Shown: positions 2,681 to 8,174 of the stretch, in pieces | How positions within the stretch are numbered: the stretch's first letter is position 1 | Layout of the letters: the number at the start of each line of letters is the position of its first letter | Source: Acrocarpospora phusangensis | GTDB lineage: Bacteria; Actinomycetota; Actinomycetes; Streptosporangiales; Streptosporangiaceae | Length of the DNA stretch: 32,985 nucleotides | Reading direction: 5' to 3' | Assembly (NCBI RefSeq): GCF_016862995.1 | Contig: NZ_BOOA01000031.1 | Location: 64,001 to 96,985, forward strand | Made by a program: the position numbers and the translations under genes | The notes under the pieces: generated by a model | What the model saw: only the letters and a program-made list of their open reading frames with translations | Told to the model about the DNA's origin: nothing | The model's database searches: none

Positions 2681-4378
2681 ATGTACGAAGTCTGGGCGCC
2701 CCTCGCGACGCGCGTCGAAGTCGAATCCGGGGGCGTCAGACGGGACATGTCTTCTGAGAACGGCTGGTGGCGGGCATCAGGCGGCGAACACGGCGACGAC
2801 TACGCATTCCACGTGGACGGCGCGGGCCCGTACCCCGACCCCCGGACGAGGCGGCAGCCGTACGGGGTGGAGGGGCCGAGCCGGGTCTACGACCACGCCA
2901 GGTTCACCTGGGGCGACCAGGACTGGCGGGGGCGCGGCCTGCGCGGTTCGGTCATCTACGAGCTGCACGTCGGCACGTACACGCCGGAGGGAACCTTCGA
3001 GGCCGTCGCCGGCAAGCTCGGGCACCTGGTCGATCTGGGCGTCGACTTCGTCGAGCTGATGCCGGTCGCGCCCGTGCCCGGCCGCCGCAACTGGGGCTAC
3101 GACGGCGTCGACCTCTACGCCGTGCGGGAGGAATACGGCGGCCCCGACGGCCTCAAGGTCCTCGTGGACGCCTGCCACCGGGCCGGGCTCGGCGTGATCC
3201 TCGACGTCGTCTACAACCACCTCGGCCCGTCCGGGAACTATCTGTCCAAGTTCGGGCCCTACCTGCACGGATTCAAGGGCTCGTACTGGGGCGACGCGGT
3301 CAACCTGGACGGCCCGCACTCCGACGAGGTGCGCCGCTACTTCATCGAGAACGCGCTCCAGTGGCTGCGCGACTACCACGTCGACGGGCTGCGCCTGGAC
3401 GCCGTGCACGCCCTCCACGACAAGCGCGCCACGCACTTCCTGGAGGAGCTCGCGGGCGAGGTCGAGGCCCTCTCCACGGTGCTCGGCCGCCCGCTCACCC
3501 TCATCGCCGAATCCGACCTCAACGACCCCGGCCTGATCACCCGGTACGGCCTGGACGCCACCTGGAATGACGACGTGCACCACGCCCTGCACTCGGCCGT
3601 GACCGGCGAGACCCACGCCTACTACGGCGACTTCGGCTCGCTGGCGGCCGTCGCCAAGGTGATGACCTCGGCGTACTTCCACGACGGCAACTACTCCACG
3701 TTCCGGGGCCGCTCGCACGGCCGCCCGGCCACCGGCGTCTCCGGTCACCGCTTCGTCTGCTGCGTGCAGAACCACGACCAGATCGGCAACCGGCCGCTGG
3801 GCGACCGGCTCCGCCCCGAGCAGCTCTGGCTGGCCGCCGGGCTGCTGCTGACCTCGCCGTTCACGCCGATGCTGTTCATGGGCGAGGAGTGGGGAGCGAG
3901 TTCCCCGTTCTACTTCTTCACCGACCACCACGACCCGGAGCTGGCCGCCGGGGAGGGCGAGCGCCGCCGCCGCGAGTTCGAGGCCTTCGGGTACGACTGG
4001 AAGGCCCCCGACCCGCAGGACGAGCAGACCTTCCTGCGCTCCAAGCTGGACTGGTCGGAGCCCGCCGAGGACGGCGCGGCCTCCCTGCTCGGCTGGTACC
4101 GCGACCTGATCGCGCTCCGCAAGGCCCACCCCGACCTGGCCGACCCCCGCCTGGACCGGGTCCGGGTGCGCTACGACGACGACCGCCACTGGCTGGTGGT
4201 ACACCGGGGCTCGATGCGGATCGCCGCCAACCTGGGCGACTTCCCCGTCCCGGTCCGGCTGAGTCCCGGCCACGTGCTGCTGGCCTCCGACGAGGGCATC
4301 ACGCTGACCGGCGCGGACCTGTACCTGCCGCCGCTCTCACTGGCCGTCGTTCACGTGGTTGCGCAGCCGAAGCTCTGA
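2681..4378 (+). CDS. treZ: Malto-oligosyltrehalose trehalohydrolase TreZ
   Basis: 565 residues, the usual TreZ length. It hydrolyses maltooligosyl trehalose to free trehalose, completing the TreY/TreZ route in the cytoplasm. An N-terminal carbohydrate-binding segment beginning YEVWAPLATRVEV precedes the GH13 barrel. Catalytic regions are DVVYNH (175-180), VDGLRLDAVHAL with nucleophile Asp240, LIAESDLND with Glu277, and QNHDQIGN with Asp366. The gene starts 23 bases after treY behind a purine-rich GGGAAATAGGTG. Its last 42 bases overlap the end of the convergent TudS-DUF1722 gene. Confidence 0.96.
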   Translation: MYEVWAPLATRVEVESGGVRRDMSSENGWWRASGGEHGDDYAFHVDGAGPYPDPRTRRQPYGVEGPSRVYDHARFTWGDQDWRGRGLRGSVIYELHVGTYTPEGTFEAVAGKLGHLVDLGVDFVELMPVAPVPGRRNWGYDGVDLYAVREEYGGPDGLKVLVDACHRAGLGVILDVVYNHLGPSGNYLSKFGPYLHGFKGSYWGDAVNLDGPHSDEVRRYFIENALQWLRDYHVDGLRLDAVHALHDKRATHFLEELAGEVEALSTVLGRPLTLIAESDLNDPGLITRYGLDATWNDDVHHALHSAVTGETHAYYGDFGSLAAVAKVMTSAYFHDGNYSTFRGRSHGRPATGVSGHRFVCCVQNHDQIGNRPLGDRLRPEQLWLAAGLLLTSPFTPMLFMGEEWGASSPFYFFTDHHDPELAAGEGERRRREFEAFGYDWKAPDPQDEQTFLRSKLDWSEPAEDGAASLLGWYRDLIALRKAHPDLADPRLDRVRVRYDDDRHWLVVHRGSMRIAANLGDFPVPVRLSPGHVLLASDEGITLTGADLYLPPLSLAVVHVVAQPKL

Positions 4379-5272
4379 CGGGTACGGCGCGAAGTAGCTC
4401 TGGTCCCGCACGTACGGCGCGGCCTCGCCGCGGGCGTGGTGGAGCAGGAGCGTGACCGGCACGGACAGCGGCACCTCGCGCCGCGCGTAGTCCACGATCA
4501 CCTCCGCCAGGTCGGCGCGGCGGACCCGGTCCAGCGCGTTGCCCACCATGCCCATGCAGTGCTGGAGCACGTTGACGTTGCGGCCGACGCTGGCCCGGCG
4601 GCACAGCGCCCGCCGGAACACCTCGGCGTAGGCGGCCCGCACGTCGCCGGATCCGGCGCCGGCGACGATCCGGCCGGCCTCCCGGTAGGCGGCGGCGTCG
4701 TGCGCGAGCAGCTGCATCTTGTGCCGCGTGTGGAAGGCGACCAGGTCCCGGGGGTGCCACTCGGCCGCCAGCAGCTCCCGCAGCCGGGCCGCCGCGAAGA
4801 TCCGCTCGACGAACTCCTCCCGGAGCACGGCGTCGTTGAGCCTGCCCTCGTCCTCCACCGGCAGCAGCGGGAACGCCTCGATGATCTTCTCGGCGAACAG
4901 GCCCCGGCCCTTGCGGCTCACGGCCTGGTCCCCGGCGTACACGGGGATGCCGTGCAGCCCGCAGGACGGGCTCTTCGCCTTGAACACGTACCCGTCGACG
5001 TCCAGCGTGCCGATCCGCCGCTCGGCCGCCTCCGTCACGGCCCCCGTCACATCGGTACGGCTCCGCCGCTGCACCAGCCTGCCGCCCCGCTCCAGCCGCA
5101 GCGTCTCCCTGGGCGTGCCGAGACCGGCCTCCATCTCCGGGCAGACGTGCACCCAGTCCACGAACCGGTCCAGCTCGTCGGCGAGGAACCGGTTGCGGCT
5201 GTGGCCCCCGTTGTAGCGGATGAGGTCGCCCAGCAGGCACCCGGAGACCGCCACCCTCGGCCGGGGGGTCAT
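4337..5272 (-). CDS. TudS (DUF523)-DUF1722 fusion protein, RudS-like putative tRNA 4-thiouridine desulfidase
   Basis: 311 residues. Residues 1 to about 150 match DUF523, the TudS thiouracil desulfidase family. The three Cys expected to hold a [4Fe-4S] cluster are present: SGCLLG (Cys12), HVCPEMEAGLG (Cys44) and KSPSCGLHG (Cys104). Residues from about 165 match DUF1722 (E. coli YbgA), with DLVAFHTRHKMQLLAHD. In the literature as I recall it, this fusion is the architecture of RudS, which removes sulfur from 4-thiouridine in tRNA; that activity here is inferred. ATG 5272 overlaps the sigma-factor stop as ATGA, so the two are translationally coupled. ybgA also neighbours phr in E. coli, and a photolyase gene lies close by here. 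The 3' end overlaps treZ by 42 bases. Confidence 0.85.
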   Translation of the reverse strand: MTPRPRVAVSGCLLGDLIRYNGGHSRNRFLADELDRFVDWVHVCPEMEAGLGTPRETLRLERGGRLVQRRSRTDVTGAVTEAAERRIGTLDVDGYVFKAKSPSCGLHGIPVYAGDQAVSRKGRGLFAEKIIEAFPLLPVEDEGRLNDAVLREEFVERIFAAARLRELLAAEWHPRDLVAFHTRHKMQLLAHDAAAYREAGRIVAGAGSGDVRAAYAEVFRRALCRRASVGRNVNVLQHCMGMVGNALDRVRRADLAEVIVDYARREVPLSVPVTLLLHHARGEAAPYVRDQSYFAPYPSELRLRNHVNDGQ

Positions 5273-5763
5273 GCCGCCACCAGCGTGGACAGGCGGTGCA
5301 GCGCCCGCGCGGTGCGCGCCTTGACGGTGCCGAGCGGCACGTCCAGCCGGTCGGCGATCTCCCGCTGGCTCAGCTCGGCGTAGTAGGCCAGCTCGATGGC
5401 CTGCCGCTGCGGCGCGGGCAGCACGGCGAGCGCCCGCCTGACCTCCTCGCGCCGGCTCAGCCGGTCGGCGTGGTCGTCGGGGTCGTGCGGGTCGCACGGC
5501 TCCGGCACCACGTCCAGCGGGACCGTGACCGGCGCGCGTCCGCGCAGGTAGTCGATGGCCCGGTTCCTGGCGATGGCCTGCAGCCAGGCCTCCAGGCTGC
5601 GGGACGGATCGTAGCGGCCCCGGCAGCGCCAGACCTCGGCGAACACGACCTGCAGCACGTCCTCGATGTCCTGGGACGGCACGAAGCGCCGGAGGTAGCT
5701 CCGCACCAGCGGCGCGTGCGCCCGGTAGCACTCCGTCACCGCGTCCGGTCCGGTGAGCGACAT
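5269..5763 (-). CDS. ECF-type RNA polymerase sigma factor (LitS-like by context)
   Basis: 164 residues with sigma region 2 (CYRAHAPLVRSYLRRF to AWLQAIARNRAIDYLRG) and region 4 (LPAPQRQAIELAYYAELSQ, EIADRLDVPLGTVKARTARA). ATG 5763 was chosen because a GGGGAGG Shine-Dalgarno lies five bases upstream; the in-frame TTG 5793 has no such signal. No anti-sigma gene is adjacent, so control is probably transcriptional through the MerR/B12-type regulator encoded just upstream. In Streptomyces coelicolor the LitR/LitS pair drives light-induced carotenoid and photolyase genes; equivalence here rests on gene order. The stop codon overlaps the next gene by four bases (ATGA). Confidence 0.92.
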   Translation of the reverse strand: MSLTGPDAVTECYRAHAPLVRSYLRRFVPSQDIEDVLQVVFAEVWRCRGRYDPSRSLEAWLQAIARNRAIDYLRGRAPVTVPLDVVPEPCDPHDPDDHADRLSRREEVRRALAVLPAPQRQAIELAYYAELSQREIADRLDVPLGTVKARTARALHRLSTLVAA

Positions 5764-5777
5764 GGTGACCTCCCCGA

Positions 5778-5810
5778 CTGAAAACTTACTCAAAACCTAT
5801 TCATATCTGC
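5778..5810 (+). promoter_or_regulatory. 11-bp tandem direct repeats upstream of the sigma gene, candidate operator
   Basis: Between the regulator stop (5843) and the sigma-gene Shine-Dalgarno, the plus strand reads CTGAAAACTTA then CTCAAAACCTA: two adjacent 11-mers sharing nine bases. A weaker third copy, TTCATATCTGC, follows. The block is strikingly AT-rich for this window. CarH, the best-studied B12-dependent MerR photoreceptor, binds tandem repeats with an 11-bp period, so the geometry suits a LitR/CarH-type operator. Binding is inferred. Confidence 0.45.
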
Positions 5811-5842
5811 TCGTGCGGAATCACGCAAGCGCAGGTGCGAGA

Positions 5843-6763
5843 TCAGCGCAGCAAGCCGACGATGCGGATGATCGCCTCGTTCATCGAGGCCAGGTGGGTG
5901 ATCCCGGGCGGCAGCTCGCGCCAGCCCGGCCCGCCGGTCATGATCGGGCTGGTCGGGCGGAGCACCGGCAGCCGGGTCAGCGGAGCGGGGTCGCCCGTCT
6001 CGGCCAGCTGCGACCAGACGAAGACGACGGCGGGGTTGAGGCGGCGCATCGCGTCGCCCAGCGCCGAGAACGGCGTGCGCGCGCCCAGCACCCGGACCTC
6101 CACCGAGTGCTCCGACGCCAGGGCGGCGGCCAGCGCGAACACGGGCAGGCTGTGCTGCTCGTCGGCCGCGCAGGCCAGCAGGGCCGGCCGGGGGTTGATG
6201 GGCAGGGCCGGGCGCCCGATCCGCGCGGTGAAGGCGGCCATGACCCGCTCGGAGAAGACGTGCTCCACGTCCACCCCGACGCCCGTGGCGGCCTGCCGCC
6301 TGCTGATCACCGCGAACGCGGGCAGGATCAGCCGGTCCCACGTCTCGGTGACCCCGAACCTGCCCAGGCCCGCCTCGACCGCCTCGGCCACCGACCAGCT
6401 GTCCAGCGCGATGGCGGCCCGCGCGAGCCGCCCGGCCAGCTGCTCGACCGGCAGCTCCGGCCGGATCTTCCCCCGTGGCGCGGGAGGTTCGGGCGTCCGG
6501 GGCGCATGGTCCGCCGGGACCGAGCGGATGCGCAGCGCGGCCTGCGCCGCCTCGGCCGGGGGCGCGCCGGCCTTGATCAGCCGGTTCATCTCCTCCAGGC
6601 GGGTCAGGTCCAGCGCGCCGTACCGGCGGTGGCCGCCCGGGCTGCGGGAGCTCGGGCCGATGCCGTAGCGGAGGTTCCAGGTGCGCAGGGTGGGCGCGGG
6701 CACGCCGAGCCGGCGCGCCACCGCGCCGATCCCGTAACTCAGGCCGTCCTGCGTTTCGTCCAT
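5843..6763 (-). CDS. MerR-family regulator with B12-binding-like domain (LitR/CarH type)
   Basis: 306 residues. The N-terminal MerR helix-turn-helix and wing span residues 10-48 (YGIGAVARRLGVPAPTLRTW, then PGGHRRY). After a proline-rich linker (about 83-100) comes a four-helix plus B12-binding-like region. Relative to CarH, the EH pair of the W-x9-EH motif is present (Glu167-His168), but the Trp position holds Gln157. The lower-ligand E-x-H is present as Glu202-Gln-His204, although the usual following Gly is Pro. It may therefore bind cobalamin, but photochemistry is uncertain. The gene is divergent from photolyase and 79 bases upstream of the sigma gene on the same strand. Its expected role is dark repression of the locus. 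Confidence 0.88.
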   Translation of the reverse strand: MDETQDGLSYGIGAVARRLGVPAPTLRTWNLRYGIGPSSRSPGGHRRYGALDLTRLEEMNRLIKAGAPPAEAAQAALRIRSVPADHAPRTPEPPAPRGKIRPELPVEQLAGRLARAAIALDSWSVAEAVEAGLGRFGVTETWDRLILPAFAVISRRQAATGVGVDVEHVFSERVMAAFTARIGRPALPINPRPALLACAADEQHSLPVFALAAALASEHSVEVRVLGARTPFSALGDAMRRLNPAVVFVWSQLAETGDPAPLTRLPVLRPTSPIMTGGPGWRELPPGITHLASMNEAIIRIVGLLR

Positions 6764-6856
6764 GTATGAGTCCGATCGGTTCCCGTGGATGACAAATCAT
6801 GCCCTGCCTGGGACACCTCTCGCCGATTCCTTCGGGCGCGACCTCGCAACGGATGC

Positions 6857-6875
6857 AACCGGTGAGCGGCCGGTT
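6857..6875 (+). promoter_or_regulatory. Inverted repeat upstream of photolyase, candidate operator or leader hairpin
   Basis: AACCGG, seven bases, CCGGTT: a perfect 6-bp dyad in the regulator/photolyase divergent region, ending just before the photolyase Shine-Dalgarno (GAAGG at 6879-6883). It could be a protein-binding site or an mRNA hairpin close to the start. Only the symmetry is observed. Confidence 0.35.
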
Positions 6876-6890
6876 TCCGAAGGTGTTCTT

Positions 6891-8174
6891 GTGAAGGAAA
6901 TCGCCAGGGAAACCGTCGTCGTGCTGTTCAACCGCGACCTGCGGGTCGGCGACCATCCCGCGCTCGCCGAAGCCTGCGCGGGGGCCCGGCACGTGCTGCC
7001 GCTCTTCGTGCTCGACCCCGGGATGGACGCGCGCGGCCGGGCCGGTTTCCTGGCCGAGTGCCTGGCCGACCTGCGGGCCTCACTCCGCGACCGCGGCGGC
7101 GACCTGGTGGTCCGCCGCGGCGACCCGGCGGCCGAGGCGGTACGGCTGGCGCGCGAGGTGAACGCGTCCGCCGTCTGGGCCTCCGCCGACGTGACCGCGT
7201 ACGCGCGGGCCAGGGAACGGCGGCTGGCCCGGGACTGCGAGCGGGAACGGCTGGAGTTCCGGCTGTTCCCCGGGGTCACGGTGGTCCCGCCCGGCCGGTT
7301 GATCCCCACCGGCGGGGATCACTACAAGGTGTTCACGCCGTACTGGCGGGCGTGGGCGGGGACGCGGTGGCGGGAACTCGTGGAGGCGCCGGAGCGGGTG
7401 AGCCTGCCGCCCGGGGTCGAGCCGGGGGAGCTGCCGGAGGCGGAGCGGGAGCCGTACGTGCCGGGTGGGGAGAGCAGGGTGCGGCGGCGGATGGAGCTGT
7501 GGCTGCGGCACGGCCTGGAGGACTACGCGGCCGGGCACGACGACCTGGCGGGGGACCGGACGTCGCGGCTGAGCCCGTACCTGCACTTCGGGTGTGTGTC
7601 GCCGCTGGAGCTGGCCCGGCTGGGATCGCGGAACGAGGAGTTCGTACGGCAGCTGTGCTGGCGTGACTTCTACCACCAGGTCACCTACGCGTTTCCTGAA
7701 ATTTCACGACGTGATTATCGGCCGCGTGGGCGGGACTGGAACGAGGACAAGGACGTCGCCCAGGCCTGGCGGGAAGGAATGACCGGAATTCCCATTGTGG
7801 ACGCCGGCATGCGGCAGCTCGCCGCCGAGGGCTGGATGCACAACCGGGCCCGCCTGATCGTCGCCTCGTACCTCACCAAGACCCTGGGCGTGGACTGGCG
7901 CGTGGGCGCCGACCACTTCGCCGACCTGCTCCTGGACGCCGACGTGGCCAACAACTGCGGCAACTGGCAGTGGATGGCGGGCACCGGCAACGACACCCGC
8001 CCCAACCGCGTGCTCAACCCGATCCGCCAGGCCAGGAAGTTCGACCCCGAGGGGGAGTACGTCCGGCGCTACGTCCTGGAACTCCAGTCCTACCCCGGCG
8101 GGGCCGTCCACGAGCCGTGGCGGCTCTCCCGCCCGGTGCGCGGCTACCCGTCACCGATCACAGCACAGGCCTGA
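6891..8174 (+). CDS. phr: Deoxyribodipyrimidine photolyase (class I CPD type)
   Basis: 427 residues from GTG 6891, which has GAAGG seven bases upstream and begins directly before the conserved VVVLFNRDLRVGDHPAL. The frame is open back to ATG 6762, but that would add 43 residues with no family match and overlap the divergent regulator start. The N-terminal antenna domain is followed by the FAD domain: WRDFYHQVTYAFPE, GIPIVDAGMRQL, GWMHNRARLIVASYL, LLDADVANNCGNWQWMAG and NPIRQARKFDP. The enzyme uses blue/near-UV light to split cyclobutane pyrimidine dimers. Being divergent from a LitR-type regulator and ECF sigma gene, it is probably light-induced. Codons around 7690-7800 are locally AT-ending. 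Confidence 0.95.
   Translation: MKEIARETVVVLFNRDLRVGDHPALAEACAGARHVLPLFVLDPGMDARGRAGFLAECLADLRASLRDRGGDLVVRRGDPAAEAVRLAREVNASAVWASADVTAYARARERRLARDCERERLEFRLFPGVTVVPPGRLIPTGGDHYKVFTPYWRAWAGTRWRELVEAPERVSLPPGVEPGELPEAEREPYVPGGESRVRRRMELWLRHGLEDYAAGHDDLAGDRTSRLSPYLHFGCVSPLELARLGSRNEEFVRQLCWRDFYHQVTYAFPEISRRDYRPRGRDWNEDKDVAQAWREGMTGIPIVDAGMRQLAAEGWMHNRARLIVASYLTKTLGVDWRVGADHFADLLLDADVANNCGNWQWMAGTGNDTRPNRVLNPIRQARKFDPEGEYVRRYVLELQSYPGGAVHEPWRLSRPVRGYPSPITAQA

Follow-up and report, generated by a model that had tools for sequence, protein, structure and literature searches.

A candidate two-layer light-response locus in Acrocarpospora phusangensis joining a LitR-like regulator and an ECF sigma factor to RudS and photolyase genes

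The rudS-phr locus of A. phusangensis

A stretch of 32,985 nucleotides from the genome of Acrocarpospora phusangensis (genome G000, contig NZ_BOOA01000031.1, positions 64,001 to 96,985; in the following, the window) contains four adjacent genes that probably form a two-layer response locus of the light type, for UV/blue light or photo-oxidative stress. A LitR-like regulator would control the joint transcription of an extracytoplasmic function (ECF) sigma factor gene and of rudS, the gene of a putative tRNA 4-thiouridine (s4U) desulfidase, while the sigma factor would control the photolyase gene phr and the regulator gene litR. The initial annotation of this DNA had already described the genes with their order, their coordinates and an ATGA junction, all of which were confirmed by open reading frames and Pfam searches.

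The gene rudS (4337..5272, minus strand) encodes 311 amino acids, with a TudS (DUF523) domain (2-thiour_desulf, PF04463, E 4.7e-36, residues 7-142) followed by DUF1722 (PF08349, E 4.1e-30, residues 185-298), i.e., the domain succession of RudS in a single protein. The ECF sigma factor gene (5269..5763, minus strand, 164 aa) was recognised by Sigma70_r2 (E 1.5e-19), r4_2 (E 4.4e-15), NCBIfam TIGR02937 and its conserved position upstream of rudS; its stop codon and the start codon of rudS overlap in ATGA at 5269-5272. The LitR/CarH-like MerR regulator (5843..6763, minus strand, 306 aa) has a degenerate cobalamin-binding region: MerR_1 (E 6.4e-12) and B12-binding_2 (24.2 bits, cut-off 23) were found, and B12-binding reached 19.3 bits, under its cut-off of 32.1. 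Divergent to this leftward order of LitR-like regulator, ECF sigma factor and rudS lies phr (6891..8174, plus strand, 427 aa), which belongs to the DNA photolyase/cryptochrome family (FAD_binding_7, E 1.5e-67).

Conservation of the gene neighbourhood

Conservation of the neighbourhood in relatives had been set beforehand as a test of the coupling proposed in the initial annotation, and it was found. A scan for RudS loci with one genome per species yielded 69 loci, 66 actinobacterial and 3 gammaproteobacterial, the latter left out of the counts; three of the 66 are partial RudS matches only (L098, L099, L104). An ECF gene was located upstream of rudS in 45/66 loci, and a LitR-like gene on the same strand at most 2 kb upstream in 44/66, with three more elsewhere in the stretch. 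Within the fetched stretch of each locus, phr was present in 22/66 and carotenoid genes in 13/66; LitR, ECF, rudS and phr occurred all together in 21 of the 66. ECF gene and rudS overlap through ATGA in 12 of these 45 loci, with start codons chosen by script; the ECF-RudS distance of -469 in L099 stems from a broken RudS frame and is not genuine. The coupling of the genes is beyond chance and the conserved arrangement is real. The closest named relatives of the window rudS were those of Acrocarpospora corrugata (83 %) and A. macrocephala (76 %).

On a wider scale, rudS was detected in 182 of 297 genomes of the family (cut-off E 1e-20) and in 33 of 394 genomes of the class (cut-off E 1e-30), all 33 in the family of the window. 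A further set of 24 loci taken from the class survey (L112-L135) contained LitR and ECF genes with direct repeats in front in seven cases.

Operator and promoter of the ECF-rudS genes

Alignment revealed a sigma70-like promoter in front of the ECF gene (5800..5828, minus strand), consisting of TTGCGT (5823-5828), a 17-bp spacer and TATGAA (5800-5805). Its -10 element overlaps the first of two adjacent 11-bp direct repeats, TGAATAGGTTT TGAGTAAGTTT (5782..5803, minus strand), which emerged from pattern scans and are the proposed operator of the LitR-like regulator. Relatives present the same architecture: the -10 runs into paired 11-bp direct repeats, TGAATARGTTT, upstream of the ECF gene. The -10 reads TATGAA in 34/43 aligned sites, and its spacing to TTGnnn is 16-18 in 41 of them. 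A strict form of the repeat pattern had 42 matches in 42/66 loci, 41 before an ECF gene and one before rudS (L037). The two controls, the reversed pattern and Markov shuffles, gave 0 across the 66 loci; the window had one match, and none appeared in 100 shuffles. With up to three mismatches allowed, the window repeats were the sole match in the whole genome, where the reversed control also gave one.

Tandem 11-bp direct repeats of the form nnnnTnnACAn, overlapping the -35 or -10 element, have been described as binding sites of CarH of Thermus and Bacillus (PMC9304148). The site in the window has this organisation with two repeats over the -10, and its complementary strand reads nnnnTnnTCAn, a base core unlike TnnACA. 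We infer that the LitR-like protein binds the two repeats.

The ECF-type promoter motif

The litR-phr intergenic region contains two opposed ECF-type motifs, TGCATCC-N16-CGAAGG facing litR (6829..6857, minus strand) and TGCAACC-N17-CGAAGG facing phr (6854..6883, plus strand), with the near-palindrome GGATGCAACC common to both. These are the two matches of TGCAWCC-N16/17-CGAARR in the window, against a mean of 0.01 in 100 shuffles. Across the 66 loci (953,674 bases) 58 matches were obtained, none with the reversed pattern and on average 0.35 after shuffling; the spacing was always 16 or 17, bar one match at 15. The motif is probably the promoter read by the ECF sigma factor.

Among the 22 phr genes, 14 were preceded by the strict motif and 19 if CGAA alone was required; the phr genes of L051, L068 and L089 were without the motif even in the CGAA-only form. 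In all 19 motif-bearing genes the first in-frame start codon is situated 7-10 nt behind CGAA, so the phr mRNA is probably leaderless or nearly so. The window phr starts accordingly with GTG at 6891; its distance of 9 nt from CGAA agrees with that in relatives. A start at 6762, offered by the longer open reading frame, is unlikely: it would begin inside the start of litR, and the promoter motif with its conserved distance points to 6891. For litR, the motif was present within 400 nt in 21/47 cases in its strict form and in 30/47 with CGAA alone.

Other genes with the motif in front of them in relatives encode polyprenyl synthetases (L061, L072 and others), phytoene-desaturase-like oxidases (L086, L090 and others) and a DUF2867 protein (L082); six of the downstream genes were identified by Pfam and the rest named by eye from the sequence. 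In Sphaerisporangium sp. TRM90804 rudS itself lies directly behind a motif (L072:6852-6880, plus strand), and the divergent polyprenyl synthetase gene has its own copy. A possible further target appeared in Planomonospora and Planobispora (L047, L051, L054, L062 and L064, at about 10.0-10.3 kb), where the motif stands before the gene of an MMPL-family transporter, an assignment checked by Pfam for L047.

Natural gene losses in Acrocarpospora

The comparison within the genus covered five genomes. In A. phusangensis and G027 (A. corrugata contig) the set of four genes is complete; the contigs of G027 and G079 were assigned to their species through coordinates that agree with L036 and L037. For G079 (A. 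macrocephala contig) and G127, genome-wide searches returned neither the ECF gene (E 1e-25) nor phr (E 1e-20), and no ECF motif was found at their rudS loci (L037 and L009). Both genomes retain LitR, the two repeats and rudS, and at L037 (6902-7927) and L009 the first ECF codons continue in frame into rudS, immediately after the repeats. In G106 (L143/L147, G106:C89), LitR, ECF gene, both motifs and phr are retained, the last with a single in-frame stop at residue 405, near its natural end; rudS has decayed to matches covering residues 4-50 and 214-307, the middle being gone. ECF gene, phr and motif thus occur together in three genomes and are all missing from two, in a sample of five in which the two losses may be a single event, and rudS tracks the LitR operator.

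From the motifs and these loss patterns, LitR probably controls ECF-rudS directly and the ECF sigma factor relays to phr. The initial annotation had suggested that light may induce both photorepair and RudS through one sigma factor. The part concerning phr agrees with the motif that marks this gene; for rudS the assumption was given up. Since rudS stays under the LitR operator in the two ECF-less species, its expression appears to be independent of the ECF sigma factor, and a requirement of RudS for this factor was rejected.

RudS and its substrate

In 27 aligned RudS proteins Cys12, Cys44, Cys104, Glu46, Arg55 and Ser101 are invariant. The second catalytic serine corresponds to Ser103 in the window and is Ser or Thr in relatives. 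For RudS_KT, Glu51, Arg60, Ser111 and Ser113 have been named as catalytic residues, together with three cluster cysteines (PMC11417400). The window protein has the cysteines and the catalytic Glu, Arg and Ser, an equivalence to RudS_KT numbering that was drawn by motif and not from the KT2440 sequence itself. The anticodon-contact motif in DUF1722 reads ASVGRNVNVLQH here versus PTRSSHTNVLQH in the gammaproteobacterial rows of the alignment.

RudS is reported to erase s4U and to lessen the UVA growth delay in E. coli (PMC11417400). The thiouridine substrate suggested in the initial annotation calls for an s4U-forming enzyme, and ThiI was indeed found in the genome (E 7.5e-63; TIGR00342 341 bits, cut-off 264.5; C8:39877-40458, a 398-aa open reading frame in L002). 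ThiI was detected in 291/297 family genomes; it was missing from none of the 182 rudS-positive and from 6 of the 115 rudS-negative genomes, some of these six being incomplete. We regard the window RudS as a putative s4U-removing enzyme.

At its 3' end rudS overlaps a convergent glycosyl-hydrolase gene (2681-4378, plus strand) by 42 bases (4337-4378), and an overlap of similar size exists in L036. RudS homologues are also carried on plasmids: 274 records matched, 174 of them typed conjugative, with Klebsiella (99), Escherichia (58) and Thermus (32) as hosts. The 39 enterobacterial records among the matches listed have an identity of about 40-43 %; in L111 the homologue overlaps a DUF3833 gene through ATGA. 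Downstream of phr follows the gene of a SAM-dependent methyltransferase (PF04672; 8238-9011, plus strand), a relative of which is a neighbour of phr or LitR at several loci, even where phr is missing (L037, L047, L052, L054, L064).

Proposed mechanism and alternative explanations

In the mechanism that we consider probable, and that sequence comparison supports well, the LitR-like protein would sit on the two 11-bp repeats over the -10 and repress the sigma70-like promoter. A signal, most likely light, would relieve the repression and permit synthesis of the ECF-rudS message. In the second layer the ECF sigma factor would read the bidirectional promoter with its shared -35 (GGWTGCAWCC) and thereby activate phr and litR, joined in relatives by carotenoid genes. 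RudS would strip the sulfur from ThiI-made 4-thiouridine at tRNA position 8, so that near-UV may no longer cross-link the tRNA and stall translation while photolyase repairs the DNA. A more far-reaching version, which we hold as tentative and rather doubtful, sees in the Streptosporangiales a new class of LitR-family light regulators with Gln replacing the cap Trp and a two-repeat operator of their own. Its output would be split within one operon into a direct s4U-erasing arm and a sigma arm, the latter serving photolyase and carotenoid genes through the bidirectional promoter, and the two arms could be lost separately, as in Acrocarpospora.

Several observations weigh against the two-layer locus. 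In 17/66 loci rudS has no LitR, ECF gene or repeats nearby (carotenoid genes adjoin it in four of these, phr in one), and 17/24 of the loci L112-L135 have rudS without LitR and ECF gene; RudS thus does not need the LitR-ECF switch. In 12 of the latter 17 rudS is divergent from phr, so the rudS-phr neighbourhood exists without the switch, too. In Nonomuraea the motif is absent from two phr loci (L139, L140), and one of the two genomes concerned, G226, does carry the ECF gene. In G206 and G211 an ECF gene is present but this phr is not; G260 shows the opposite, and G233 has neither. Across the whole A. phusangensis genome the strict motif had four matches versus three for the reversed control, hence it is not above background outside the locus. 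Two matches outside the window (L106, L109) were dropped as ECF targets, no convincing leaderless gene being located behind them, and the genome search gave no match to the phytoene synthase family. With the motif at background level and no phytoene synthase, the recognisable targets in this genome are litR and phr. Streptomyces LitR, moreover, is described as activating, not repressing, litS (PMC12705666). The last point concerns the sensor: the Trp of Wx9EH, which separates B12-dependent CarH from B12-independent CarA (PMC9304148), is present in 0/48 aligned regulators, at a position placed by phmmer and MAFFT alignments.

The missing Trp opens the way for the most serious alternative, to which we give somewhat less than even weight: the signal may be photo-oxidative or another stress, and the regulator a repressor of the CarA type, independent of B12 and relieved by another factor, CarS-like or a short LOV protein. 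At the position of the cap Trp, Gln is found in 42 regulators, His in three and Asp, Val and Tyr in one each; the adjacent His, in CarH the cobalt ligand after illumination, is also unconserved among the 48. Light sensing by adenosylcobalamin in the manner of CarH is therefore unsupported and cannot be assumed. The loss of Trp with Glu-His of Wx9EH and the lower-ligand ExH kept in 48/48 is a pattern described for CarA. The B12 motif is, besides, unmatched at its SxT/V element, which lies at 43 residues where 41 are expected and reads SQL. The match to CarH (5c8d, E 3.2e-12) covers the MerR DNA-binding head and is weak in the tail, and class II LitR of Pseudomonas uses a short LOV antirepressor (PMC9758184). 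What speaks for a cobalamin-type light regulator is the retention of GG and of the lower-ligand motif D/ExHx2G/P, here ExHxxP, whose E and H occur in 48/48 sequences followed by Pro in 45 and Ala in three. In addition, the operon contains no obvious antirepressor gene, a statement made without a genome search for LOV or CarS-like proteins, and what the system targets in relatives, phr and carotenoid genes, is the classical light set. A mere co-location, with rudS as a passenger behind the ECF gene and its product as a housekeeping tRNA eraser or active on another thiolated substrate, would agree with the switch-free loci and with the decay of rudS in G106 beside an otherwise intact locus. We judge it distinctly unlikely in view of the repeat-bearing promoter that rudS retains in L037 and L009 after the loss of the ECF gene, the divergent rudS-phr pairs in LitR-free loci, and the position of rudS beside carotenoid genes in L045, L050, L067 and L072, in the last directly behind an ECF motif. 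Rather unlikely is also a plain LitR-LitS system of the Streptomyces kind to which one gene has been added. It would share the logic of a MerR-B12 regulator, an ECF sigma factor and photolyase/carotenoid targets, and in Nonomuraea the LitR-ECF pair indeed adjoins crtE-crtI-crtB. The comparison was made with a single cluster of Streptomyces atratus (L153/L155), whose LitR-LitS identity was read from the neighbouring genes; another Streptomyces candidate, L152 (H43), was dropped as its annotation shows no sigma gene nearby. Against this one sequence the window ECF sigma factor had 37 % identity and was only the third best match in its genome to the crt-linked sigma of S. atratus, which leaves orthology to LitS, as implied by the initial annotation, unsupported. 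The regulator is 34 % identical to its S. atratus counterpart, which keeps the Trp, and no ECF motif was found in the S. atratus stretch compared. The S. atratus regulator, sigma factor and carotenoid cluster (L155) lie near the end of an 898-kb linear plasmid.

Relation to known systems and biological meaning

RudS genes are often part of light-responsive operons with photolyase or carotenoid genes; an operon from Pseudomonas that unites PhrB, LitR and RudS has been named, and light-induced removal of s4U has been proposed (PMC11417400). The general idea of a light-inducible RudS beside photolyase under LitR is therefore not new. The initial annotation knew of no such coupled system in actinomycetes; the terms "Actino" and "Streptomyces" have no occurrence in the main text of PMC11417400, and a literature search over open-licence papers yielded no account of an actinomycete LitR-ECF-RudS operon. 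The wiring by an ECF sigma factor looks new: the Streptosporangiales seem to carry out the light-RudS-photolyase idea with another subtype of regulator and with a sigma factor as relay.

The locus resembles the Pseudomonas LitR (PplR)-PhrB-RudS operon in that RudS and photolyase share a light-responsive neighbourhood with a regulator of the LitR family (PMC11417400; PMC9758184). Whereas sigma70 promoters and a short LOV partner are described for Pseudomonas, a dedicated ECF sigma factor with its own motif appears to stand here between regulator and photolyase, and the operator is different. A LitR-type regulator, an ECF relay and photolyase and crt targets are shared with Streptomyces LitR-LitS; the Streptomyces cluster compared differs by having no RudS. 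With CarH/CarA of Thermus, Bacillus and Myxococcus the regulator has in common a MerR head, a cobalamin-type tail and tandem 11-bp operators over the promoter (PMC9304148), with two repeats in place of three or four in addition to the altered core and the lost Trp. RudS conforms to its family in domain order, cysteines and catalytic residues and differs in the DUF1722 anticodon-contact motif and in the proposed control by a two-layer switch.

If the proposal is true, bacteria far from Pseudomonas have wired DNA photorepair and s4U removal to one light-type switch built from other regulatory components. This wiring can be tested directly by means of the operator and sigma-promoter motifs, and the missing Trp raises the question of how the regulator senses light. 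The three natural states in Acrocarpospora, i.e., the complete locus, the loss of sigma factor and phr, and the decay of rudS, are ready comparisons for the value of s4U erasure under sunlight.

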